A DNA stretch of 13,697 bases from an uncultured Clostridia bacterium (GTDB lineage Bacteria > Bacillota > Clostridia > Oscillospirales > Ruminococcaceae). Position 1 is the first letter of the stretch; each line of letters begins with the position of its first letter. The notes below the pieces were generated by a model. That model searched no databases, was not told the origin of the DNA, and worked only from the letters and a program-made list of their open reading frames with translations. Where the stretch lies: the NCBI GenBank assembly GCA_946535685.1, contig CAMNDR010000003.1, positions 1 to 13,697 on the forward strand, read 5' to 3'. The translations under genes were made by a program, and so were the position numbers. Positions 1 to 13,070 of this stretch are shown in pieces.

Positions 1-775
1 CCTCTGCCATTCTGCGGATGAGCTTCACCCACTGTACCGGGTGATTGATCTGCTGAAGCATGAGCTGCTTCGGGTCGCCCTCATAGGGGGCTGCGGTGAG
101 GTTCGCATACACCGGAATCTCCGGAAGCTGTACAGGAAAGCCTTCAAGCTCCTTACCGAACGGCTCCACGGCGGGCGTCATGTACGGCGAATGGAACGCA
201 CCGCTGACAGCCAGCATCACGCCTCTGCCCTTCTGTGCCTTGACATCGGCAGCGAGCGCTTCGAGCTGGGTCTTGTCACCGGAAACAACGAGCTGCACCG
301 GGGAATTGTAGTTCACCGGGAACACCTTGTCATAGGGCTTGCAGAGTGCTTCCGTCTGCTCGATGGGGAGCTTGACGACCGCCATCATGGAGACATCCTG
401 TCCCTCGCCGGCCTTTGCCATTGCAGCACCGCGCTTTGCAGCGATCATAAAGCCGTCTGCCTGCGCATAGGCACCGCCGACCGCAAGCGCCGGGATCTCA
501 CCGAGCGAGAAGCCTGCAAGGCCCTCCGGCCTGATGCCGTTCTCCATCAGCGCAAGTGCAGCCGCCATATCTGCTAAGTACAGGCAGGGCTGGGTGTTCT
601 GCGTCTGCTTCAGCTCTGTGCCGTCGCCCTCGAACATCTGTGCAAGCGTGCCGGGACGTTCTGTCTCAGCGATGTTGAACAGATCAGCGACAGGGTTATA
701 TTCTTCATAAAATTCCTTGCCCATGCCCACATGCTGGGCACCCTGGCCGGAAAAGACAAATGCTATTTTACCCAT
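1..775 (-). CDS. fabD: Malonyl-CoA:ACP transacylase FabD (C-terminus cut by window edge)
   Basis: Moves the malonyl group from CoA to acyl carrier protein, supplying the elongation unit for type II fatty acid synthesis in the cytoplasm. The 258 visible codons start MGKIAFVFSGQGAQ, which contains the N-terminal GQG motif. The nucleophile is Ser90 in GFSLGE, Arg115 lies in AAKRGAAM, and the catalytic His195 lies in SGAFHSPYM. QQINHPVQW near the edge matches the late part of the family, so only about 50 residues should be missing. The motif has Phe where E. coli has His (GHSLGE); non-His residues there are, as I recall, known in Firmicutes. The start codon overlaps the last 13 nt of fabK, so the two are translationally coupled. 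Family call is certain; the gene is only partial because of the window. Confidence 0.96.
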   Translation of the reverse strand, partial: MGKIAFVFSGQGAQHVGMGKEFYEEYNPVADLFNIAETERPGTLAQMFEGDGTELKQTQNTQPCLYLADMAAALALMENGIRPEGLAGFSLGEIPALAVGGAYAQADGFMIAAKRGAAMAKAGEGQDVSMMAVVKLPIEQTEALCKPYDKVFPVNYNSPVQLVVSGDKTQLEALAADVKAQKGRGVMLAVSGAFHSPYMTPAVEPFGKELEGFPVQLPEIPVYANLTAAPYEGDPKQLMLQQINHPVQWVKLIRRMAE

Positions 776-1713
776 TTTGCAGCTCCTTTCAGCAGTTCCT
801 CAGCTTCCTGCATGATCTCGAGGATGATCTCCTCGCAGGTCTGTTCCTTGCTGACCATGCCGGAGATCTGTCCGGCGAGGACGCTGCCCGTCTTGACATC
901 GCCCTCCACGGCAGCTCTGCGGAGCGAACCCGCGCCGAGGTTTGCGATGGATTCTGCCGTTGCCTCGGGCGCATACTCCTCCTTGATGAAGCTGCGTGTG
1001 AAGCTGTTCTTGATGCCTCTGCAGGTGTTTCCGCCGAAGCGGCGGCCGGTCACCTGGGTGGAAATATCCTTCGCACCGAGCACCATATCCTTGTAATTCT
1101 GGTGAACGCCGCATTCCTTCGCAACGAGGAAGCGGGTGCCCATCTGTACGCCGGCAGCACCCAGCATAAACGCTGCAGCGATGCCTCTGCCGTCACCGAT
1201 ACCGCCTGCAGCGAGCACCGGGATATCCACGGCATCCACGACCTGCGGCACAAGCGCCATCGTGGTCAGCTCGCCGATGTGGCCGCCGGACTCCTGTCCT
1301 TCTGCGATCACAGCATCAGCGCCTGCCTTCTGCGCCTGCTTTGCCATTGCGCAGGAAGCAACGACCGGAACGACTTTGATGCCGGCCTCTTTCCACATGG
1401 CAATATAAGGAGCCGCACTGCCTGCGCCGGTGGTGATGACAGCGGGCTTTTCCTCTGCACACACCTGCGCACATTCTGCGGCGAACGGACTCATCAGCAT
1501 TATATTCACGCCAAAGGGCTTATCAGTCAAAGACCTGGCGATATGGATCTGTTCTCTGACATACTCTGCATTGGCGTTCATAGCCGAAATGATGCCAAGG
1601 CCGCCGGCATTGGAGACCGCTGCGGCAAGCTTGCCGTCAGCGATCCATGCCATACCGCCCTGGAATACCGGGTACTGAATGCCCAGCATGTCGCAAATAG
1701 GCGATGCTACCAT
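763..1713 (-). CDS. fabK: Enoyl-ACP reductase II FabK (FMN-dependent)
   Basis: Reduces trans-2-enoyl-ACP to acyl-ACP, the last step of each elongation cycle, using FMN and NAD(P)H. The 316-residue protein is a TIM-barrel of the nitronate monooxygenase/FabK family. It has the N-terminal MLGIQYPVFQGGMAW, the glycine-rich AAGGIGDGRG (about 168-177) and GVQMGTRF for FMN phosphate binding, and His145 in AEGQESGGHIGE, the residue position tied to NADPH/activity in pneumococcal FabK. FabK replaces FabI in many Gram-positives and is not sensitive to triclosan, so that property is expected here by family. It begins 3 nt after the acpP stop with GAGGG seven bases before ATG. It ends inside fabD with a 13-nt overlap. 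Confidence 0.96.
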   Translation of the reverse strand: MVASPICDMLGIQYPVFQGGMAWIADGKLAAAVSNAGGLGIISAMNANAEYVREQIHIARSLTDKPFGVNIMLMSPFAAECAQVCAEEKPAVITTGAGSAAPYIAMWKEAGIKVVPVVASCAMAKQAQKAGADAVIAEGQESGGHIGELTTMALVPQVVDAVDIPVLAAGGIGDGRGIAAAFMLGAAGVQMGTRFLVAKECGVHQNYKDMVLGAKDISTQVTGRRFGGNTCRGIKNSFTRSFIKEEYAPEATAESIANLGAGSLRRAAVEGDVKTGSVLAGQISGMVSKEQTCEEIILEIMQEAEELLKGAAKWVK

Positions 1714-1716
1714 TGA

Positions 1717-1944
1717 TTAGCCCTCGTTGGTCAGCTTCTCAACAGCCTCGACCAGCTTGCCGACAGTGTCGATCTCCGGAGAGGGAGTGAACTCGATGCT
1801 GAACTCATCCTCGAGGTCCATGCACATCTCAGTCATGTCGAGAGAGTCAACGCCCAGGTCGGAAAACTTGGTGTTCATGTTGATCTCGGAAGCCTCGGTG
1901 TCGGTAGCCTCTGCCAGCATCTCAATAATTTTTTCCTTTACCAT
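1717..1944 (-). CDS. acpP: Acyl carrier protein AcpP
   Basis: Carries growing acyl chains on a 4'-phosphopantetheine arm during fatty acid synthesis. This 75-residue acidic helical protein has the attachment motif GVDSLDM, with the serine receiving the arm, followed by the acidic recognition helix MTEMCMDLEDEF. The reading frame stays open upstream to 2049, but that extension runs through palindromic noncoding sequence. The ATG at 1944 is chosen because AAGGAG sits at a normal distance before it and because the 75-residue product matches the family's usual length. It lies between fabH and fabK in the operon. Unlike the tightly packed fabK and fabD, it has a 198-bp gap in front of it with its own promoter-like sequence, which fits the need for much more ACP than enzyme. 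Confidence 0.97.
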   Translation of the reverse strand: MVKEKIIEMLAEATDTEASEINMNTKFSDLGVDSLDMTEMCMDLEDEFSIEFTPSPEIDTVGKLVEAVEKLTNEG

Positions 1945-2142: not shown

Positions 2143-3099
2143 TCAGTACTCCAGCAGGCAAGCCATGTTGGACAGGCCGCCGCCGAAGGCACAGAGGATG
2201 ATCTTGTCGCCCCGTCTGAGCTGGCCGCTCTCCTTGAGCTCGTGCAGCGCCATCGGAACGGAAGCGCTGGAGGTGTTGCCGTACTTCTCGATGTTCACAA
2301 ACATCTTGTCGGTGCTGATGCCCAGCTTGTGGCACGCAAAGTCGATGATGCGGGCATTTGCCTGATGCGGCACGATCCATGCGATATCGTCCATGGTCAG
2401 ATGGTTGCGCTCCAGCAGTGTCTGGATGTCGTTGGTAATGGCAGTGACCGCATACTTGAAGGTCTCCTGCCCCTTCATATGGATATAGGGGGTATCCTGC
2501 TCCCGGTTGAAGAAAGGCGATGTTCCTACAAAATGCGGGATCTTGATGACATCGTCGCCGCCCTTGACCGTGCAGACGGAATCGAGATAGCCGTCGCCCC
2601 GTTCCAGCACAGCCGCACCGGAGCCGTCACCGAAAATGACGCAGGTCGAGCGGTCGGTCCAGTCGAGAATGGCGCTCATGCGCTCGCAGCCGACCACAAG
2701 GATCCGCTTGTACTCCTTGTGCAGCGCAAAATAAGCCGCTGCCGTTTCGAGCAGATAGAGAAATGCAGCGCACGCAGCATTCAGCTCCATTGCCGGGCAG
2801 GTGGCACCAAGCTGGTTCTGCAGCATGCAGGCCATCGACGGGGAAACCGTCTCGCCGCTGACAGTGGCAGCCAGGATCAGATCCAGATCCTCCGCCTTCA
2901 CGCCGGCATCGTCCAGTGCAGCCTGTGCGGCCTTGGCGCCCATCTCAGAGGTGAACTCCGTCTCAGAAACATGGCGTTCCTTAATGCCGACACGCTTGGT
3001 GATCCATTCGTCATTTGTCTCGACGATATGGGAAAGATCATCATTTGTGACGACTTTCGGCGGCACATACATACCGGTACCGATGATACGAAAACTCAT
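2143..3099 (-). CDS. fabH: Beta-ketoacyl-ACP synthase III FabH
   Basis: Starts fatty acid chains by condensing an acyl-CoA primer with malonyl-ACP; it is a cytoplasmic thiolase-fold enzyme. The 318-residue length is normal. The catalytic triad is visible as Cys110 in ELNAACAAF, His245 in WIVPHQANAR and Asn275 in YGNTSSASVPMAL. The N-terminal DEWITKRVGIKERH and the middle GDGSGAAVL are also typical. The ATG at 3099 has AGGAGG a few bases upstream. It is the first gene of the fab operon and is divergent from the ECF sigma gene. The promoter-like pair TGTAAC/GCTACTAA lies about 40-70 bases upstream. In streptococci the gene just before fabH is the repressor fabT; none is present here. Confidence 0.97.
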   Translation of the reverse strand: MSFRIIGTGMYVPPKVVTNDDLSHIVETNDEWITKRVGIKERHVSETEFTSEMGAKAAQAALDDAGVKAEDLDLILAATVSGETVSPSMACMLQNQLGATCPAMELNAACAAFLYLLETAAAYFALHKEYKRILVVGCERMSAILDWTDRSTCVIFGDGSGAAVLERGDGYLDSVCTVKGGDDVIKIPHFVGTSPFFNREQDTPYIHMKGQETFKYAVTAITNDIQTLLERNHLTMDDIAWIVPHQANARIIDFACHKLGISTDKMFVNIEKYGNTSSASVPMALHELKESGQLRRGDKIILCAFGGGLSNMACLLEY

Positions 3100-3138
3100 T
3101 GGAAAGCCTCCTGTGGTTGATTTTTTGGTATCCTTTAA

Positions 3139-3168
3139 TTAGTAGCCGCTGCAGGAGATTTTGTTACA
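3139..3168 (-). promoter_or_regulatory. Predicted ECF-type promoter for the fabH operon
   Basis: Minus strand: TGTAAC at 3168-3163 (-35), 16 bp, then GCTACTAA at 3146-3139 (-10 region). The leader to the fabH ATG at 3099 would be about 33 nt and contains AGGAGG. TGTAAC resembles the -35 used by Bacillus SigX/SigV-type factors. There is no good vegetative pair here: the nearest would need a 19-bp spacer. The same elements with the same spacing face the sigma gene. Confidence 0.65.
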
Positions 3169-3234
3169 AAAATAGCCGCCAAATCATCCCATATCCATCA
3201 CCCGATTTTTGTGCATATTGACCATTCTGTTCCC

Positions 3235-3264
3235 TGTAACATTTCAGGAGCAGAATGCTACTAA
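3235..3264 (+). promoter_or_regulatory. Predicted ECF-type autoregulatory promoter of the sigma operon
   Basis: TGTAAC at 3235-3240, 16 bp, then GCTACTAA at 3257-3264. This is an exact match in both elements and in spacing to the minus-strand site at 3139-3168. The predicted start near 3271 gives a short leader with GAGGAGG at 3281-3287 before the ATG at 3298. ECF factors commonly drive their own operon, so this fits autoregulation by the adjacent gene. Confidence 0.65.
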
Positions 3265-3297
3265 CTATTTGATGAAAGCTGAGGAGGCTTCATTGCG

Positions 3298-3810
3298 ATG
3301 AAACAGGAATTTGAAGCGTTATACCAGGAATATTTCCCACGCATCTACGCTTTTCTCTACAAGCTGACCGAAAGCCGGGACTTAGCGGAGGAGCTGACGC
3401 AGGAGACCTTTTATCAGGCGTTCGTTTCCTTCTACAGATTCCGGGGCGACAGTGATGTGTTCACATGGCTCGCCTCGATCGGGAAGCATACATATTACCG
3501 TTATCTGCGGAAGAACCGCCACCAGGTCGAGAATCTCAGCGCCGAGCAGCTCATTGAGCTGTACGGAGAGGGCGCGACAGAGCATCTGGCGGACACTGTG
3601 GAGCGGCAGCTTCTGTTGGAAAGCACGCGGCGGGCGCTGTTGTCGCTGCCGAAAAAATACCAGGATGTGACCATCCTGCGGGTCTACGCCGACATGAGCT
3701 ATGCACAGATCGGCGATGCGCTGCATATCAGCGAAAATTCGGCCAGAGTGATCTACTTCCGGGCGAAGAAAATGATGATGGAGGCGATTCAGGATGAATA
3801 TGACGTGTGA
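3298..3810 (+). CDS. ECF (group IV) RNA polymerase sigma factor
   Basis: Directs RNA polymerase to a small set of alternative promoters. At 170 residues it has only the two ECF domains. Sigma region 2 spans about 5-72, with RDLAEELTQETFYQAF for core binding and -10 melting and FTWLASIGKHTYYRYLR. Sigma region 4 spans about 112-162: LLSLPKKYQDVTILRVYADM, then the helix-turn-helix SYAQIGDALHISENSARV, which reads the -35. The ATG has GAGGAGG ten bases upstream. The next gene, an anti-sigma factor, overlaps it by 17 nt. The twin promoters in front of it and in front of fabH suggest that its targets include itself and fatty acid synthesis (inference). It does not clearly match a named Bacillus sigma factor. 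Confidence 0.95.
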   Translation: MKQEFEALYQEYFPRIYAFLYKLTESRDLAEELTQETFYQAFVSFYRFRGDSDVFTWLASIGKHTYYRYLRKNRHQVENLSAEQLIELYGEGATEHLADTVERQLLLESTRRALLSLPKKYQDVTILRVYADMSYAQIGDALHISENSARVIYFRAKKMMMEAIQDEYDV

Positions 3811-4132
3811 GGTCGCAAGAGATCTGGCGGAGTTGTACCATGAAGGTCTGGTCAGCACGGAAAGCGCCAGAGCGATCCGTGCGCATCTGAAGGGGTGCAG
3901 CCGCTGCAGGCGGTACTACAAGGCTTATGATACGATGAATACGCTGCATTTCCCGCTGTATCAGACCCCCGACATCGAGGATGCCGAGGCGAGATCCTAT
4001 GAAGCGCTCTCAAAGCGTCTGCGCAAGCGGCGTGTCTTTGAGATCGTAACGACCGGCGCTGCCATCGGGGCAGGCTCGATCATGCTGGCAGCGGGCATCA
4101 TCCTGCTTGTGCGTTCGCATCACGATGATTGA
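3794..4132 (+). CDS. Membrane-anchored zinc-type (ZAS-like) anti-sigma factor
   Basis: Holds the preceding sigma factor inactive until a signal arrives. The 112-residue protein starts with a cytoplasmic zinc-finger-like domain: Cys5, then His31-X3-Cys35-X2-Cys38 (HLKGCSRC), the ZAS pattern of anti-sigma factors. A basic linker (KRLRKRR, about 74-80) leads into one membrane segment, about 82-106. Only about six residues (SHHDD end) follow, so it has practically no extracytoplasmic sensor. The ATG at 3794 is preferred over 3800 because GGAGG at 3780-3784 is nine bases before it. It overlaps the sigma gene by 17 nt and cobO by 8 nt. Pairing with the sigma factor is strongly supported by position; the signal is unknown. 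Confidence 0.88.
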   Translation: MNMTCEVARDLAELYHEGLVSTESARAIRAHLKGCSRCRRYYKAYDTMNTLHFPLYQTPDIEDAEARSYEALSKRLRKRRVFEIVTTGAAIGAGSIMLAAGIILLVRSHHDD

Positions 4133-4640
4133 GATCTACTGCGGCAGCGGCAAGGGCAAGACCACTGCAGCCCTCGGTCTGACGCTGCGTGCGTCCGGTG
4201 CCGGGATGCGGGTGCTGTTCATGCAGTTTCTCAAGGGCGGCGAAACTTCGGAGCTTTCTGCGCTCTCACTGCTGCCCGGCGTGACCGTGCGGCGCTGTGA
4301 CCGGGACTATGGCTTCACATTCCGGATGAGCGATGCCGACCGTGCAGCGATCACGGCTTGTCACAATGCGCTGCTTGCCGGGGCATGGGATGCCATGCAG
4401 ACGCAGTCAGCCGGTCTGATCGTGCTCGATGAGCTGTGCGCCGCATACAACACCGGGCTGCTCGATCAGGCAGCCGCTCTGCGGCTTGTGCAGCACTGTC
4501 CGCCGGAGATCGAACTGGTGCTGACCGGCCGGGACCCGGATCCGGCGTTTCTTGCAGCCGCGGATTACATCAGCGAGATCCATGCCGTGCGGCACCCCTT
4601 TGAACGGGGCATCACGGCACGGAAAGGGATCGAATATTAG
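4125..4640 (+). CDS. cobO: Corrinoid (cob(I)yrinic acid a,c-diamide/cob(I)alamin) adenosyltransferase
   Basis: Transfers the adenosyl group of ATP to the cobalt of reduced corrinoids, giving adenosylcobalamin or its precursor. The 171-residue protein begins MIEIYCGSGKGKTTAALG, the modified P-loop of the BtuR/CobO/CobA family. It goes on with RVLFMQFLKGG, AGLIVLDELCAAYNTGLL (Walker B-like) and LVLTGRDPDPAFLAAADYISE, all typical. It is shorter than E. coli BtuR and lacks that protein's N-terminal extension, as in many Firmicutes. The ATG at 4125 overlaps the anti-sigma stop by 8 nt. There is no clear Shine-Dalgarno, so translation probably depends on coupling. A TTG at 4107 is in frame but would only add six unlikely residues. 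No other cobalamin gene is nearby, so its place in a sigma operon is unusual. Confidence 0.92.
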   Translation: MIEIYCGSGKGKTTAALGLTLRASGAGMRVLFMQFLKGGETSELSALSLLPGVTVRRCDRDYGFTFRMSDADRAAITACHNALLAGAWDAMQTQSAGLIVLDELCAAYNTGLLDQAAALRLVQHCPPEIELVLTGRDPDPAFLAAADYISEIHAVRHPFERGITARKGIEY

Positions 4641-6796: not shown

Positions 6797-9340
6797 TTAT
6801 GCCCTTTTCTTCCGGTAGTGTGCCTGCACCCGCAGCAGCACGAACAGCACGCACAGGATCGTCACGCCGGTATCTGCAAAGACGCTCAGCCACATATTGG
6901 CAAAGCCGCAGAAGCCCAGCACCATGATCGCCAGCTTCACCGCCAGCGCAAAGATCACACAGATCTTCGCCGTGGAATTGACCCTGTCTGCAATGTCCAG
7001 CGCGGTCATCACTGCTGCCGGATCCGAACCGAGGAGCACGACATCCGCCGCCTCCATCGCCGCATCCGCGCCGCTTCCCATGGCAATGCCGACATCCGCA
7101 CCGGACAGCACCGGCGCATCGTTGATGCCGTCACCGACAAAGAGCACGCTGCCATGCGAACGGCGCACCTGCTCCATCCGCTGCGGTTTTTCATCCGGGA
7201 GCAGCCCTGCATGAACCTCTGCAATGCCGAGCGAAGACGCTGCCGCCTGTGCATGGGCAGGCGTATCGCCGGTGAGCATCACCGTATGCATGCCGCGCCG
7301 GTTCATCGCCGCCACGGTATCCTTCGCCGCAGGGCGCAGTGCGTCCGAAAGCACCAGCGTGCCGCAGTAAACACCGTCCGCCGCCACATGCACGAGCGTT
7401 CCCACCGATGTGATCTCCGGCACGGCTGCGCCTTCCGCTGCCATGAGCTTTTCATTTCCCACTGCAATGCGTCTGCCGTCCACCGAAGCCGTCAGACCCA
7501 TGCCTGCGCATTCCTGTACATCCGCAGCCGCCGGATAGCTGATCTGCCGTTCCCTTGCCGCCTGGAGGATGCTCCCTGCCACCGGATGCACGGAAAATGC
7601 TTCACATGCAGCACAATCCCGCAGCACTGCCGCCGGATCATCCGCCAGGATCTCCGTGACCTCAAAGCGCCCCTCTGTCAGCGTGCCGGTCTTATCCATG
7701 ACCGCTGCCTTCACGCCGGACAATGCCTCGATCGTGATGCCGTCCTTGAACAGGATGCCCTTGGACGAGCCTGCACCGATGCCGGCGAAGAATGCCAGCG
7801 GCACACTCAGCACCAGCGCACACGGACAACTGATCATCAGGAAATTCAGCGCCGTATAGATCCATTTCTGCCACTCACCCGTAAACAGCGGCGGGATCAC
7901 AGCCGTCAGCACAGCGACCGCAACGACCAACGGTGTGTAGAACCGGGCAAACCGGGTAATGAACCGGTCGATCTTCGGCTTGCCGGCAGCGGCATTTTCC
8001 ACACTGTCGAGGATGCGCTGCACCATGGAATCCTGCAGTGCTGCTGTCACCTCAAGCTCCAGCACGCCGCTCTGGTTGATGCAGCCGCTCATCACCGCAT
8101 CGCCCTCCCGCACGGTCACAGGCACCGGCTCGCCGGTCATCGCCGAGGTATCCACGGTGCTCTCACCCTTGCGGACAACGCCGTCCACAGGGATCCGGTC
8201 ACCGACCCGCACCAGAATCCGGTCGCCGGGCTGCACGAGCTCTGCCGGAAGTGTTTCCTCCGTGCCTTCATGCAGAAGCTGTACTGTCTCCGGCCGCAGG
8301 TCGATCGCTTCCATCACAGATTTCCGGCTGCGTGCCACCGCAAGCTGCTCGCACAGCTCACCGATGCGGAAAAACAGCATCACGCCTGCCGCTTCCTCCC
8401 ACGCACCGATGCAGAGCGCACCGATCGTGGCAATCGCCATCAGAAAGTTTTCGTCGAAGATCTGGCCTTTTCCAATGCTCCTGACGGAGGTGAGCAGCAC
8501 CTCGCCGCCCAGCAGCAGATAGGCCGCCAGCAGCAGCACCTTGTCTAAAAGCGGCACACCCTGCAGCAGGAGATGCGCCGCCAGCCCCAGTGCAAACAGC
8601 ACACCGCCTGCGATCAGCGTCACCTTGCCGGGCTCCAGCTTTGCCGCTGCTGCTTTTTCATGATGATGTTCATGCTCGTGCGCATGTTCGTGCTCGTGAT
8701 GATGCTCATGCTCGTGCGCATGTTCATGCTCGTGATGATGCTCATGCTCGTGATGATGCTCATGCTCGTGTTCATGCTCACCGCAGTGGCAATGCTCATG
8801 CTCATGATGATGCTCGTGCTCGTGTTCATGCTCACCGCAGTGGCAGTGCTCATGTTCATGATGATGCTCGTGGTGATGATGATGCTCATGGGCATGGTGC
8901 TTGGGGGTGAAGATCACGCCGTCCTCCACGCTGTCAGAAGCCGCCTGGATGGCTTCGAGCAGGCCTTCCTCGGAATGCGCCAGCACATGCAGCGTCCCCG
9001 TCGCATAGGACAGGCTCACCGATTCCACGCAGTCCAGCCGTCCGATGGCCGCTTCGATCTTGGCGGCACAGTTCGGGCAGTCGATATTCTCAAACCGATA
9101 GACAAACCGCTTCGCCCTCGCCTTCTTGTGCTCGGAAAAGATCACGCCCTCCTCCACGGCATCGGATGCTGCCTGGATGCGCTCAAGCAGGCCTTCGATC
9201 TTCTCTGCCGTAATGTGGAGCTGCCCTGTGGCATAGGACAGGCTCGCTGCTTCCACGCCCTCAAGGCGCTGGATCTCCGCCTCGATCTTCGCCGCACAAT
9301 TCGGACAGTCAAGGTTTTCCACCGTATAAACAGCTTTCAT
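6797..9340 (-). CDS. zntA: P1B-type heavy-metal ATPase (Zn/Cd/Pb exporter) with two HMA domains and His-rich linker
   Basis: Pumps soft divalent metals out of the cytoplasm at the cost of ATP. The 847-residue order is: HMA domain 1 (1-68) and HMA domain 2 (76-144), both with DCPNCAAKIE; a His/Glu-rich linker (148-228); four membrane helices; the actuator with MTGEP (401-405); CPC at 505-507 in the transport helix; the phosphorylated Asp549 in DKTGT; His585-Pro586 of the nucleotide domain; GDGINDAP (736-743); and a last helix with Asp823 in FADTGVTI. CPC with an Asp in the last helix pair is the ZntA/CadA (P1B-2) pattern, not the Cu pattern. ATG at 9340 is chosen over GTG at 9349, which abuts the AAAGGG site. 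A consensus promoter and an ArsR-type palindrome lie upstream. Zn versus Cd/Pb cannot be separated by sequence. Confidence 0.95.
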   Translation of the reverse strand: MKAVYTVENLDCPNCAAKIEAEIQRLEGVEAASLSYATGQLHITAEKIEGLLERIQAASDAVEEGVIFSEHKKARAKRFVYRFENIDCPNCAAKIEAAIGRLDCVESVSLSYATGTLHVLAHSEEGLLEAIQAASDSVEDGVIFTPKHHAHEHHHHHEHHHEHEHCHCGEHEHEHEHHHEHEHCHCGEHEHEHEHHHEHEHHHEHEHAHEHEHHHEHEHAHEHEHHHEKAAAAKLEPGKVTLIAGGVLFALGLAAHLLLQGVPLLDKVLLLAAYLLLGGEVLLTSVRSIGKGQIFDENFLMAIATIGALCIGAWEEAAGVMLFFRIGELCEQLAVARSRKSVMEAIDLRPETVQLLHEGTEETLPAELVQPGDRILVRVGDRIPVDGVVRKGESTVDTSAMTGEPVPVTVREGDAVMSGCINQSGVLELEVTAALQDSMVQRILDSVENAAAGKPKIDRFITRFARFYTPLVVAVAVLTAVIPPLFTGEWQKWIYTALNFLMISCPCALVLSVPLAFFAGIGAGSSKGILFKDGITIEALSGVKAAVMDKTGTLTEGRFEVTEILADDPAAVLRDCAACEAFSVHPVAGSILQAARERQISYPAAADVQECAGMGLTASVDGRRIAVGNEKLMAAEGAAVPEITSVGTLVHVAADGVYCGTLVLSDALRPAAKDTVAAMNRRGMHTVMLTGDTPAHAQAAASSLGIAEVHAGLLPDEKPQRMEQVRRSHGSVLFVGDGINDAPVLSGADVGIAMGSGADAAMEAADVVLLGSDPAAVMTALDIADRVNSTAKICVIFALAVKLAIMVLGFCGFANMWLSVFADTGVTILCVLFVLLRVQAHYRKKRA
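8657..8899 (-). repeat. Tandem repeat coding the His/Glu-rich linker of the metal ATPase
   Basis: About 243 bp of short tandem repeats (variants of GAGCATGAGCAT on the coding strand) encode 81 residues, about 47 of them His, the rest almost all Glu. Two modules with HCHCGEHEHEHEHHHEHE lie in tandem, followed by HAHEHEHHHEHE units. It is in frame and inside the gene, so it is coding low-complexity sequence likely to chelate metal. It is also liable to slip-strand length change. Confidence 0.95.
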
Positions 9341-9364
9341 GGAAAGCACACCCTTTCATTTGAA

Positions 9365-11518: not shown

Positions 11519-12229
11519 ATGGTACAAATCACTTGTAAAGACGCCGTCCTGGGCTATGAGGACGGCATTGTAGCCGAAGGGCTCAATTTTATCGTTGAAG
11601 AGGGCGATTACCTCTGCATTCTCGGCGAAAACGGCTCCGGCAAGAGCACGCTCGTCAAGGCGCTGCTCGGCCTGAAATCGCAGAAAAGCGGTGAGATCAC
11701 GCTGCATACCAAGGGCATCGGCTATCTGCCGCAGCAGACCGTCGTCCAGCGGGATTTCCCGGCATCCGTCCAGGAGATCGTGCGCTCCGGCTGTCTTGCC
11801 GGCATGGGATTCCGGCCGTTTTACACAAAGGAGGAAAAGCAGCGTGCCAAAACCACCATGCAGGAGCTCGGCATCGCAGAGCTTGCCAGACGCTGCTACC
11901 GGGATCTTTCCGGCGGACAGCAGCAGAGAGTCCTGCTCGCAAGAGCGCTCTGTGCGACCAAGCACCTGCTGCTTCTCGACGAGCCGGTCACCGGCCTGGA
12001 TCCGAAGGCGCAGCTTGATCTCTATGACCTGATCGCGCGGCTCAACCAGAACGGCGTGACCATCATCATGGTCTCTCACGATGTCAACGCCGCTGTGCGC
12101 TATGCTTCGCACATTCTCCACATCGGCAGCCGGCGCCAGCTCTTCTTCGGCACGGTGGAGGAATACCGGAACAGCCATGTCGGGCAGTCGTTCCTTGCAG
12201 CAGGAGGGTTGGAAGATGAACAGTCTTGA
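11519..12229 (+). CDS. znuC: Zinc/manganese-type ABC transporter ATP-binding protein
   Basis: Powers uptake of a divalent metal, probably Zn2+, through the permease encoded next. The 236-residue ATPase has Walker A GENGSGKST (36-44), the Q-loop LPQQ (70-73), the signature LSGGQQQR (130-137), Walker B LLLLDEP (150-156) and the switch His187 in SHD. The segment QRDFPASVQEIVRSG after the Q-loop is typical of the ZnuC/MntB/TroB group. ATG at 11519 has GAGGA about six bases upstream. It is the first gene of the operon and overlaps the permease gene by 14 nt. The Fur-family-like palindrome upstream favours Zn (or Fe) over Mn, but metal choice is not proven by the protein sequence. Confidence 0.92.
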   Translation: MVQITCKDAVLGYEDGIVAEGLNFIVEEGDYLCILGENGSGKSTLVKALLGLKSQKSGEITLHTKGIGYLPQQTVVQRDFPASVQEIVRSGCLAGMGFRPFYTKEEKQRAKTTMQELGIAELARRCYRDLSGGQQQRVLLARALCATKHLLLLDEPVTGLDPKAQLDLYDLIARLNQNGVTIIMVSHDVNAAVRYASHILHIGSRRQLFFGTVEEYRNSHVGQSFLAAGGLEDEQS

Positions 12230-13070
12230 AACACTGGTGGATTATTTTGTCAATTACTCCTTTGTGCGCTATGCATTCATTGTCGGACTGCTGATCGCGC
12301 TCTGCTCCTCGCTGCTCGGCGTGACGCTGGTGCTCAAGCGCTTCTCCTTCATCGGTGACGGGCTTTCGCATGTAGCATTCGGTGCGATGGCAGTGGCAGC
12401 CGTCACAGGTCTCACCAACCGGATGGCGATCGTTCTGCCGGTCACGCTCTTAGCGGCGATCCTGCTGCTGCGCACGGGGCAGAACACCAAGATCAAGGGC
12501 GATGCCGCCGTGGCAATGATCTCGGTCGGAGCGCTCGCCATCGGCTATATGCTGATGAACGTGTTTCCTTCATCGTCCAACATTTCGGGCGATGTCTGCA
12601 GCACGCTGTTCGGCTCGACCTCGATCCTGACACTGCGTCCGGCGGATGTGACACTGTGCGTCATTATGGCAGTCGTGGTGCTGGGCATCTTCCTGCTGTT
12701 CTACAACAAGATCTTCGCCGTGACCTTTGACGAGAATTTCGCACAGGCAAGCGGCATCCAGGCCAATCTCTACAATTTCATCATCGCCGTCGTGACCGCA
12801 ATGATCATCGTGCTGGCGATGAATCTGGTCGGCTCGCTGCTGATCTCGGCGCTGATCATTTTCCCGGCGCTCTCGGCGATGCGTGTGTTCAAGAGCTTCC
12901 GGAGCGTCATCATCTGTTCAGCGGTGATCTCGGTGGTCTGTGCCGCCACAGGCATCATTCTCTCGATCCTGTTCTCCACGCCGGTCGGCTCCACGATCGT
13001 GACGGCGGACATCGTCGTATTTCTGGGCTTCTGGGCAGTGTCGCTGATGATGGGAGGAAAAAGAGCATGA
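12216..13070 (+). CDS. znuB: Metal ABC transporter permease (ABC-3 family)
   Basis: Forms the membrane channel of the divalent-metal importer. The 284-residue protein is strongly hydrophobic with about eight or nine helices. It shows ABC-3 family landmarks: LVLKRFSFIGDGLSHVAFGA near residues 38-57, FDENFAQASGIQ in the cytoplasmic loop that meets the ATPase, and SLLISALIIFPALSAMRVFKS. The frame is open further upstream, but the ATG at 12216 has AGGAGG eight bases before it and begins a normal N-terminus (MNSLETLVDYFVNYSF). It overlaps the ATPase gene by 14 nt and the lipoprotein gene by 4 nt, so the three are one translational unit. Confidence 0.93.
   Translation: MNSLETLVDYFVNYSFVRYAFIVGLLIALCSSLLGVTLVLKRFSFIGDGLSHVAFGAMAVAAVTGLTNRMAIVLPVTLLAAILLLRTGQNTKIKGDAAVAMISVGALAIGYMLMNVFPSSSNISGDVCSTLFGSTSILTLRPADVTLCVIMAVVVLGIFLLFYNKIFAVTFDENFAQASGIQANLYNFIIAVVTAMIIVLAMNLVGSLLISALIIFPALSAMRVFKSFRSVIICSAVISVVCAATGIILSILFSTPVGSTIVTADIVVFLGFWAVSLMMGGKRA

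Follow-up and report, generated by a model that had tools for sequence, protein, structure and literature searches.

The window, by which the whole analysed stretch of 13,697 nucleotides is meant, carries four fatty acid synthesis (FAS) genes on its minus strand and, divergent from them, an ECF sigma factor gene followed by two overlapping genes on the plus strand. The features of this locus are the following:

1..700, minus strand: fabD, malonyl-CoA:ACP transacylase, cut by the window start (Acyl_transf_1)
763..1713, minus strand: fabK, enoyl-ACP reductase II (438.7 bits, below the cut-off of 453.1)
1717..1944, minus strand: acpP, acyl carrier protein (Pfam)
2143..3099, minus strand: fabH, beta-ketoacyl-ACP synthase III (TIGR00747, above cut-off)
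3139..3168, minus strand: predicted ECF-type promoter on the fabH side, with TGTAAC as -35 box, N16 and GCTACTAA as -10 box (sequence match and genus comparison)
3206..3223, no strand assigned: third conserved element between the -35 boxes, TTTTGTNNATNNTNACGAA type (alignment of 32 loci)
3235..3264, plus strand: predicted ECF-type promoter on the sigma side, with identical boxes and spacing (sequence match and genus comparison)
3298..3810, plus strand: ECF sigma factor, 170 aa (Sigma70_r2 1.9e-12, Sigma70_r4_2 5.7e-11)
3794..4132, plus strand: anti-sigma factor, zf-HC2, with HLKGCSRC (HXXXCXXC) and one hydrophobic, TM-like segment followed by 6 residues (Pfam)
4128..4640, plus strand: CobO/BtuR-like corrinoid adenosyltransferase, overlapping the anti-sigma gene (Pfam)

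The gene calls of the preliminary description (fabH, ACP, FabK, the cut FabD, ECF sigma factor, and zf-HC2 anti-sigma factor) agree with the Pfam/NCBIfam matches. The sigma factor is a short protein with sigma regions 2 and 4 only, and it passes the sigma70-ECF model TIGR02937 with 82.9 bits (cut-off 42.9). It stays under the cut-offs of the SigW equivalog (48.4 bits, cut-off 209), the SigM subfamily (100.3 bits, cut-off 147.95; the best NCBIfam match by E-value), and PRK09644 SigM (76.5, cut-off 199). The anti-sigma gene adjoins and overlaps the sigma gene, as is expected of a cognate anti-sigma factor. Its HXXXCXXC is the ZAS motif. In the genus, HXXXCXXC and a hydrophobic segment were found in the ORF behind sigma at 30 of 30 loci (Pfam was run on the window protein only), and the C-terminal hydrophobic segment is trailed by only 5–18 residues. 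A CobO/BtuR-like relative is located downstream of sigma in 26 of these 30 loci.

The sequence TGTAAC-N16-GCTACTAA is present at 3168-3139 on the minus strand, toward fabH, and at 3235-3264 on the plus strand, toward the ECF sigma gene. The two 30-mers lie at the coordinates and on the strands claimed for them beforehand, with all 14 box bases identical and 16 spacer bases in both. When up to three mismatches were allowed, three matches were found in the window; 200 dinucleotide shuffles gave 0.20 on average, and none reached three. Exact matches in the whole assembly of the organism (1,455,807 bases, 59% complete) are these two alone. At up to two mismatches, the assembly has 6 matches vs. 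12 for the pattern read backwards, so such counts carry little meaning, and for this reason counting was restricted to stringent forms. Another contig of the same genome has TGTAAC-N16-GGTACTAA, with one mismatch, 45 bases before gpsA.

Orthologues of the window sigma, 63–96% identical, were identified in 33 other genomes, so the sigma is present in 34 of the 38 genomes of the genus. It is missing from assemblies G010, G028, G029, and G031. The contig of G031 begins inside the fabH box, that of G029 ends about 115 bases above the fabH box, and the fabH of G010, located at a contig end, is short of its 23 N-terminal residues; in these three the sigma is missing because the contigs end near fabH. 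Genome G028 is without fabH too. In the 30 first loci, fabH is divergent from sigma in 28, and loci L023 and L029 have just 228 and 141 bases upstream.

Each site was scored by the number of its mismatches to TGTAAC and ACTAA, to which two softer positions could add half a point each. A sigma-facing box of score 2 or lower is present in all 34 genus loci and of score 1 or lower in 30 of them, with the reservation that a strong site on the opposite strand can give rise to a score-2 match as its mirror image. A fabH-facing box of score 1 or lower was found in 32 of the 34 sigma loci. Locus L029, which has no such fabH box, is cut by a contig end. In locus L116 (G033), the distance between sigma and fabH is 1.3 kb, and fabH retains its own box with score 0.5. 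Across the first 30 loci, TGTAA has an information content of 2.0 bits, the following C of 1.05 or 2.0, and ACTAA of 1.78–2.0, values that are inflated by the picking of sites by resemblance. The spacer, 15 or 16 bases long, has high information over its first three, A/T-rich bases and 0.02–0.9 beyond; this contrast between spacer ends and middle is not inflated. Conserved boxes around a free spacer middle are the behaviour expected of a -35/-10 pair.

The preliminary description had suggested a comparison of the fabH-sigma intergenic region across relatives, and there the box pair is kept while most of the spacer drifts (both boxes in 32 of 34 loci). The 14-base identity it had reported holds exactly in the window, but as a motif it was too strict. 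The form constrained in relatives is looser, namely TGTAAY, an A/T-rich spacer start, a spacing of 15 or 16, and then mostly G-N-Y-ACTAA; it is this looser form that is fixed, and the exact 14-base identity was rejected as the motif. Chance similarity, or plain inheritance of a slowly evolving intergenic region, could be considered given that the first two sites are found within a single intergenic region. This reading is very unlikely, to the point of being negligible, as most of the spacer has diverged and the boxes have not, and as the motif also precedes unlinked plsA and gpsA genes, and fabH in other gene arrangements (see below).

The third conserved element lies between the two -35 boxes, and the window copy departs from the pattern near its end. 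The TTTTGTNNATNNTNACGAA-type motif gave 31 exact matches in the 38 genus genomes vs. 1 for the reversed motif, and 26 of them are away from sigma and fabH. At the 20 of these 31 places that were examined, no common gene function was recognized. The element is probably a site of another, putative regulator.

The stringent pattern TGTAACN{15,16}GNYACTAA has 91 matches in the 38 genus genomes vs. 28 for the reversed pattern. Forty-six of them are at sigma or fabH; the other 45 comprise 23 at plsA-like genes, 16 at gpsA, one at a fabH by a contig end, and five others. Altogether, 86 of the 91 face sigma, fabH, plsA, or gpsA, and the list of downstream genes asked for in the preliminary description is thus short and made almost entirely of lipid genes. 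The remaining five stringent sites (L078, L087, L091, L097, and L109) have no link to a lipid gene; at L087 and L109, just 179 and 118 bases of contig remain downstream of the site.

Sites were also sought starting from the genes, with 30 loci each of plsA and gpsA, of which 59 with at least 200 bases upstream were scored. A site of score 1 or lower is present within 400 bp upstream in 47 of the 59; as controls, none of the 59 loci reached this score on the reverse strand and none of 332 downstream pieces did, and at score 2 the reverse strand matched in 4 of 59. No site of score 1.5 or lower was found within 400 bp in 11 of the 59 loci. Four of these 11 have a site further upstream (466–989 bp), for one the available upstream sequence is just 226 bp long, and four are siteless even in wider surroundings (plsA of G005, G009, and G014; gpsA of G002). 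The plsA of G017, which is outside the 59, has no site either. In the genome of the window, plsA runs off the contig end and its promoter region is outside the sequence.

The plsA-like protein (977-aa type) has BcrAD_BadFG activator domains and DUF2229, and a second reductase gene is adjacent to its gene, with a DUF2229 match below the cut-off. In L257, the 977-aa and 416-aa ORFs span about 4.2 kb. For comparison, the cloned plsA-plsR fragment of Clostridium perfringens has 4,199 bp according to the available text of PMC12838417. Both are two-gene units of the 2-hydroxyacyl-CoA dehydratase family, likened here by layout and size only. From its domains, two-gene layout, and matching size, the plsA-like gene pair is a predicted ether-lipid unit. 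The accessible part of PMC13274423 states that vinyl-ether (PlsA) and alkyl-ether (Ger) enzymes are indistinguishable by sequence alone and that two activation domains are connected with Ger in some bacteria; the plsA-like protein has two activation domains, as has the alkyl-ether Ger of those bacteria. In L263 and L265, the plsA-like gene is directly behind an alanine racemase gene (by Pfam in L265, by reading in L263) and without a sigma site, and in L264 and L266 the sigma site is absent as well.

GpsA has the domains of NAD(P)-dependent glycerol-3-phosphate dehydrogenase (Pfam 1.7e-54 and 1.1e-43) and passes NF000942 with 401.5 bits (cut-off 257). L272, L273, L274, and L275 have an apparent der-plsY-gpsA arrangement (Pfam was matched for the plsY of L272 only), with the gpsA site behind plsY and ahead of gpsA; by position, it would be an internal promoter. 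In L070 and L075, the site and gpsA are separated by a gene for a 138-aa protein without Pfam match, and L071 has a 62-aa relative of this protein there.

The gene list bears on the possibility that the sigma is a general envelope-stress ECF factor, SigM- or SigW-like, with lipid genes as only a part of a broad regulon. The SigM subfamily being its best NCBIfam match would fit this, the genome-wide list covers stringent sites and not weaker ones, and the SigW of Bacillus subtilis reaches fabHA-fabF within a broad regulon, as far as the available text on it goes (see below). Against it stand the 86 of 91 stringent matches at sigma, fabH, plsA, or gpsA, the fab linkage of 35 of the 37 rows in the sigma's tree group, and the retention of the box by fabH, and a broad regulon is considered rather unlikely. 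A sigma factor dedicated to lipid genes is preferred.

To sample relatives of this sigma beyond the genus, contigs were searched with a profile of the sigma alignment and the best 80 of 565 candidates were kept, so the clade is sampled and not complete. In the tree of 81 sigmas, all 35 rows labelled fab-linked are in one group of 37, with support of 98/75, which falls short of the tool's star. The other two rows of the group are L127, a truncated contig, and L137, Chakrabartyella piscis, which has no fabH within 4 kb on either side of sigma. In L145 and L151, both labelled fab-linked, the near neighbour is fabK rather than fabH.

The wider set with a fabH match consists of 34 loci, 13 from the genus and 21 from beyond it; the match of L145 is 37% identical and 4 kb away. 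The box before fabH has score 2 or lower in 34 of 34 loci and 1 or lower in 29 of 34; for the loci beyond the genus alone, the numbers are 21 of 21 and 16 of 21. The box before sigma is less constant, and no box of score 2 or lower was found there in 13 of the 34. Eight of the 13 are loci of Anaerotignum and kin in which sigma, anti-sigma, and fabH run in one direction. In none of these eight is there a box before sigma, and all eight have a box of score 0.5 or lower between anti-sigma and fabH, 36–63 bases from fabH. The other five are L147–L149 (Lachnospiraceae), L131, and L134. A box before sigma was thus rejected as a general rule. The fabH box survives changes of gene order, and from its presence in 34 of 34 loci vs. 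the 13 of 34 without a sigma box it follows that fabH would be the fixed target and autoregulation optional. The distance from box end to gene start is 16–113 bases for sigma and 29–111, with one of 202, for fabH.

A sigma relative at E<=1e-35 was found in 11 of 197 genomes of the family, two of which belong to the genus, i.e. in 9 of 194 outside it. In these 194 genomes, the stringent pattern has 29 matches vs. 78 for the reversed one. A looser pattern applied to 14 genomes outside the genus gave 20 matches vs. 21 reversed, which is no excess. Sixteen of the 20, counted among forward matches only, are placed at fabH (6), sigma (5), AMP-binding acyl-activating enzymes (3), and DegV (2). DegV proteins include the fatty-acid-binding FakB.

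Genus genomes have 3 to 16 ECF-like matches each, and other ECF factors in them might read similar boxes. The ECF factors of L155, L180, and L183, which are without fab linkage, have TGTAAC-N15-G..ACTAA before their own genes. Recognition of the boxes by such a paralogue in place of the neighbouring sigma is nevertheless improbable: several ECF-like genes are indeed available in the genus, but the fabH box accompanies the fab-linked sigma through different gene arrangements, and the family genomes, mostly without this sigma, show no excess of the motif. The neighbouring sigma factor, together with core polymerase, would then be the reader of the boxes.

The usual account of lipid synthesis in Firmicutes is one of repression by proteins that sense lipid intermediates. 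FapR and FabT are such repressors and read malonyl-CoA/ACP or acyl-ACP, and they had been named beforehand as the regulators to which this position belongs in relatives. FapR was found in none of the 38 genus genomes; the control search for it rang in 5 of 14 genomes, once over the cut-off. No MarR-type (FabT-like) gene was seen by eye in the ORF lists of the FAS regions of four relatives, where Pfam covered six proteins from two of the four. Within 3050-3350 of the window, no sigma-70-like promoter was found at tool thresholds, a weak result given that shuffles average only 0.9. From this and the lack of FapR in the 38 genomes it follows that the ECF site may be the main promoter of fabH.

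Boxes serving as operators of a FapR- or FabT-like repressor or activator, and not as sigma promoters, are highly improbable, even though TACTAA resembles half of the FapR operator and the third conserved element hints at the binding of a further regulator to this region. A FapR-type operator as the main reading was ruled out with the failure to find FapR in the genus genomes. Operators would also fit poorly with a directional box pair, 15 or 16 bases apart, that faces the gene at the distances given above, or with the boxes that some ECF genes without fab linkage carry before themselves. Like the sigma proposed here, FapR and FabT coordinate FAS-II and phospholipid genes; they are repressors, whereas a sigma/anti-sigma pair occupies the locus in this genus, in whose genomes FapR was not found.

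The reading in terms of promoters is very probable: the boxes would form a pair of divergent promoters read by a single ECF sigma factor whose dedicated task is the synthesis of membrane lipids, and which has a zinc-finger, single-TM anti-sigma factor. By sequence comparison, the boxes are real features, conserved and oriented, with defined genes behind them, and are co-inherited with the sigma gene. The co-transcribed anti-sigma, anchored by one transmembrane helix, would hold and so inhibit the sigma. After release, the sigma would transcribe its own operon in a positive feedback, and also the FAS-II operon beginning with fabH-acpP-fabK-fabD. That the fabH operon belongs to the regulon of this sigma had been predicted from the window and is supported by the genus comparisons, from which reading of the boxes by the sigma is inferred. 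In the genus, the sigma would also transcribe the plsA-plsR-like ether-lipid unit and gpsA, which provides for glycerol-3-phosphate; if it drives all three, fatty acid synthesis, the glycerol backbone, and ether-lipid conversion would be set together. The signal would come from the condition of the membrane or from that of lipid intermediates. As the anti-sigma has almost no outer sensor domain, a guess at its likely input would be a protease, a lipid intermediate in the cytoplasm, or the membrane itself. In this mostly uncultured lineage of gut Clostridia, a dedicated sigma factor, rather than the usual repressors, probably governs lipid making. A fuller version is put forward tentatively, with chances somewhat below even: a FAS-II operon without a housekeeping promoter of note, and fatty-acid, backbone, and ether-lipid synthesis under a sigma whose anti-sigma reads the membrane, as a lipostat replacing FapR/FabT.

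ECF control of fatty-acid genes as such is already known. The available text of PMC3498285 (citing Kingston 2011) reports that B. subtilis SigW transcribes fabHA-fabF from a promoter inside the operon, and it also lists FapR among the regulators of fabHA-fabF. According to the same text, mutating sigW left fabHA unaffected in the absence of stress, and conditions known to induce SigW brought no induction. SigW is, like the window sigma, a Firmicute ECF factor acting on fatty-acid synthesis genes, and it is tied to membrane fluidity (PMC3498285). As described there, it differs in having a broad regulon alongside FapR; here, FapR was not found and the stringent sites are almost only at lipid genes. 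The sigma described here also sits beside or in the FAS operon, unlike in the fabHA-fabF case of SigW. SigX of Pseudomonas aeruginosa is likewise an ECF factor acting on FAS genes; when it is overproduced, FAS enzymes are induced and membrane fluidity increases (PMC3875570). It is a Gram-negative system found by overexpression, and the accessible portion of that article describes no fab-linked locus or such a promoter pair. In the preliminary description, control by an ECF factor had been called a different regulatory logic; in view of SigW and SigX, this would hold for the dedication of a sigma to fab genes and not for ECF control itself.

No report of a fab-linked ECF sigma in Clostridia was found in open-access titles and abstract openings, which is a weak absence. 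What is apparently new is a fab-linked and apparently dedicated sigma across several clostridial groups, with strong predicted sites that are almost purely at lipid genes. The sole regulator named beside a pls gene in the available text on these genes is TetR-like, belongs to facultative anaerobes, and is said to be absent from strict anaerobes. If the proposed reading is true, a sigma/anti-sigma pair on FAS, gpsA, and ether-lipid genes would be a case of positive control with membrane feedback, and for strict anaerobes the sigma would become a candidate for the control of plasmalogen-type genes. The minimal anti-sigma would be a clean subject for the question of how a membrane helix senses its own membrane. 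Named relatives in the tree, e.g. the Chakrabartyella strain with a complete genome, suggest that testing in culture is feasible.

Elsewhere in the window, the translation of an 850-aa ORF at 6797-9349 on the minus strand looks by eye like that of a heavy-metal P-type ATPase that has two metal-binding domains at its N-terminus and a very long His/Glu repeat. Reading by eye also suggested an ABC ATPase at 11519-13070 together with a membrane protein; the two may be a pair for metal uptake.
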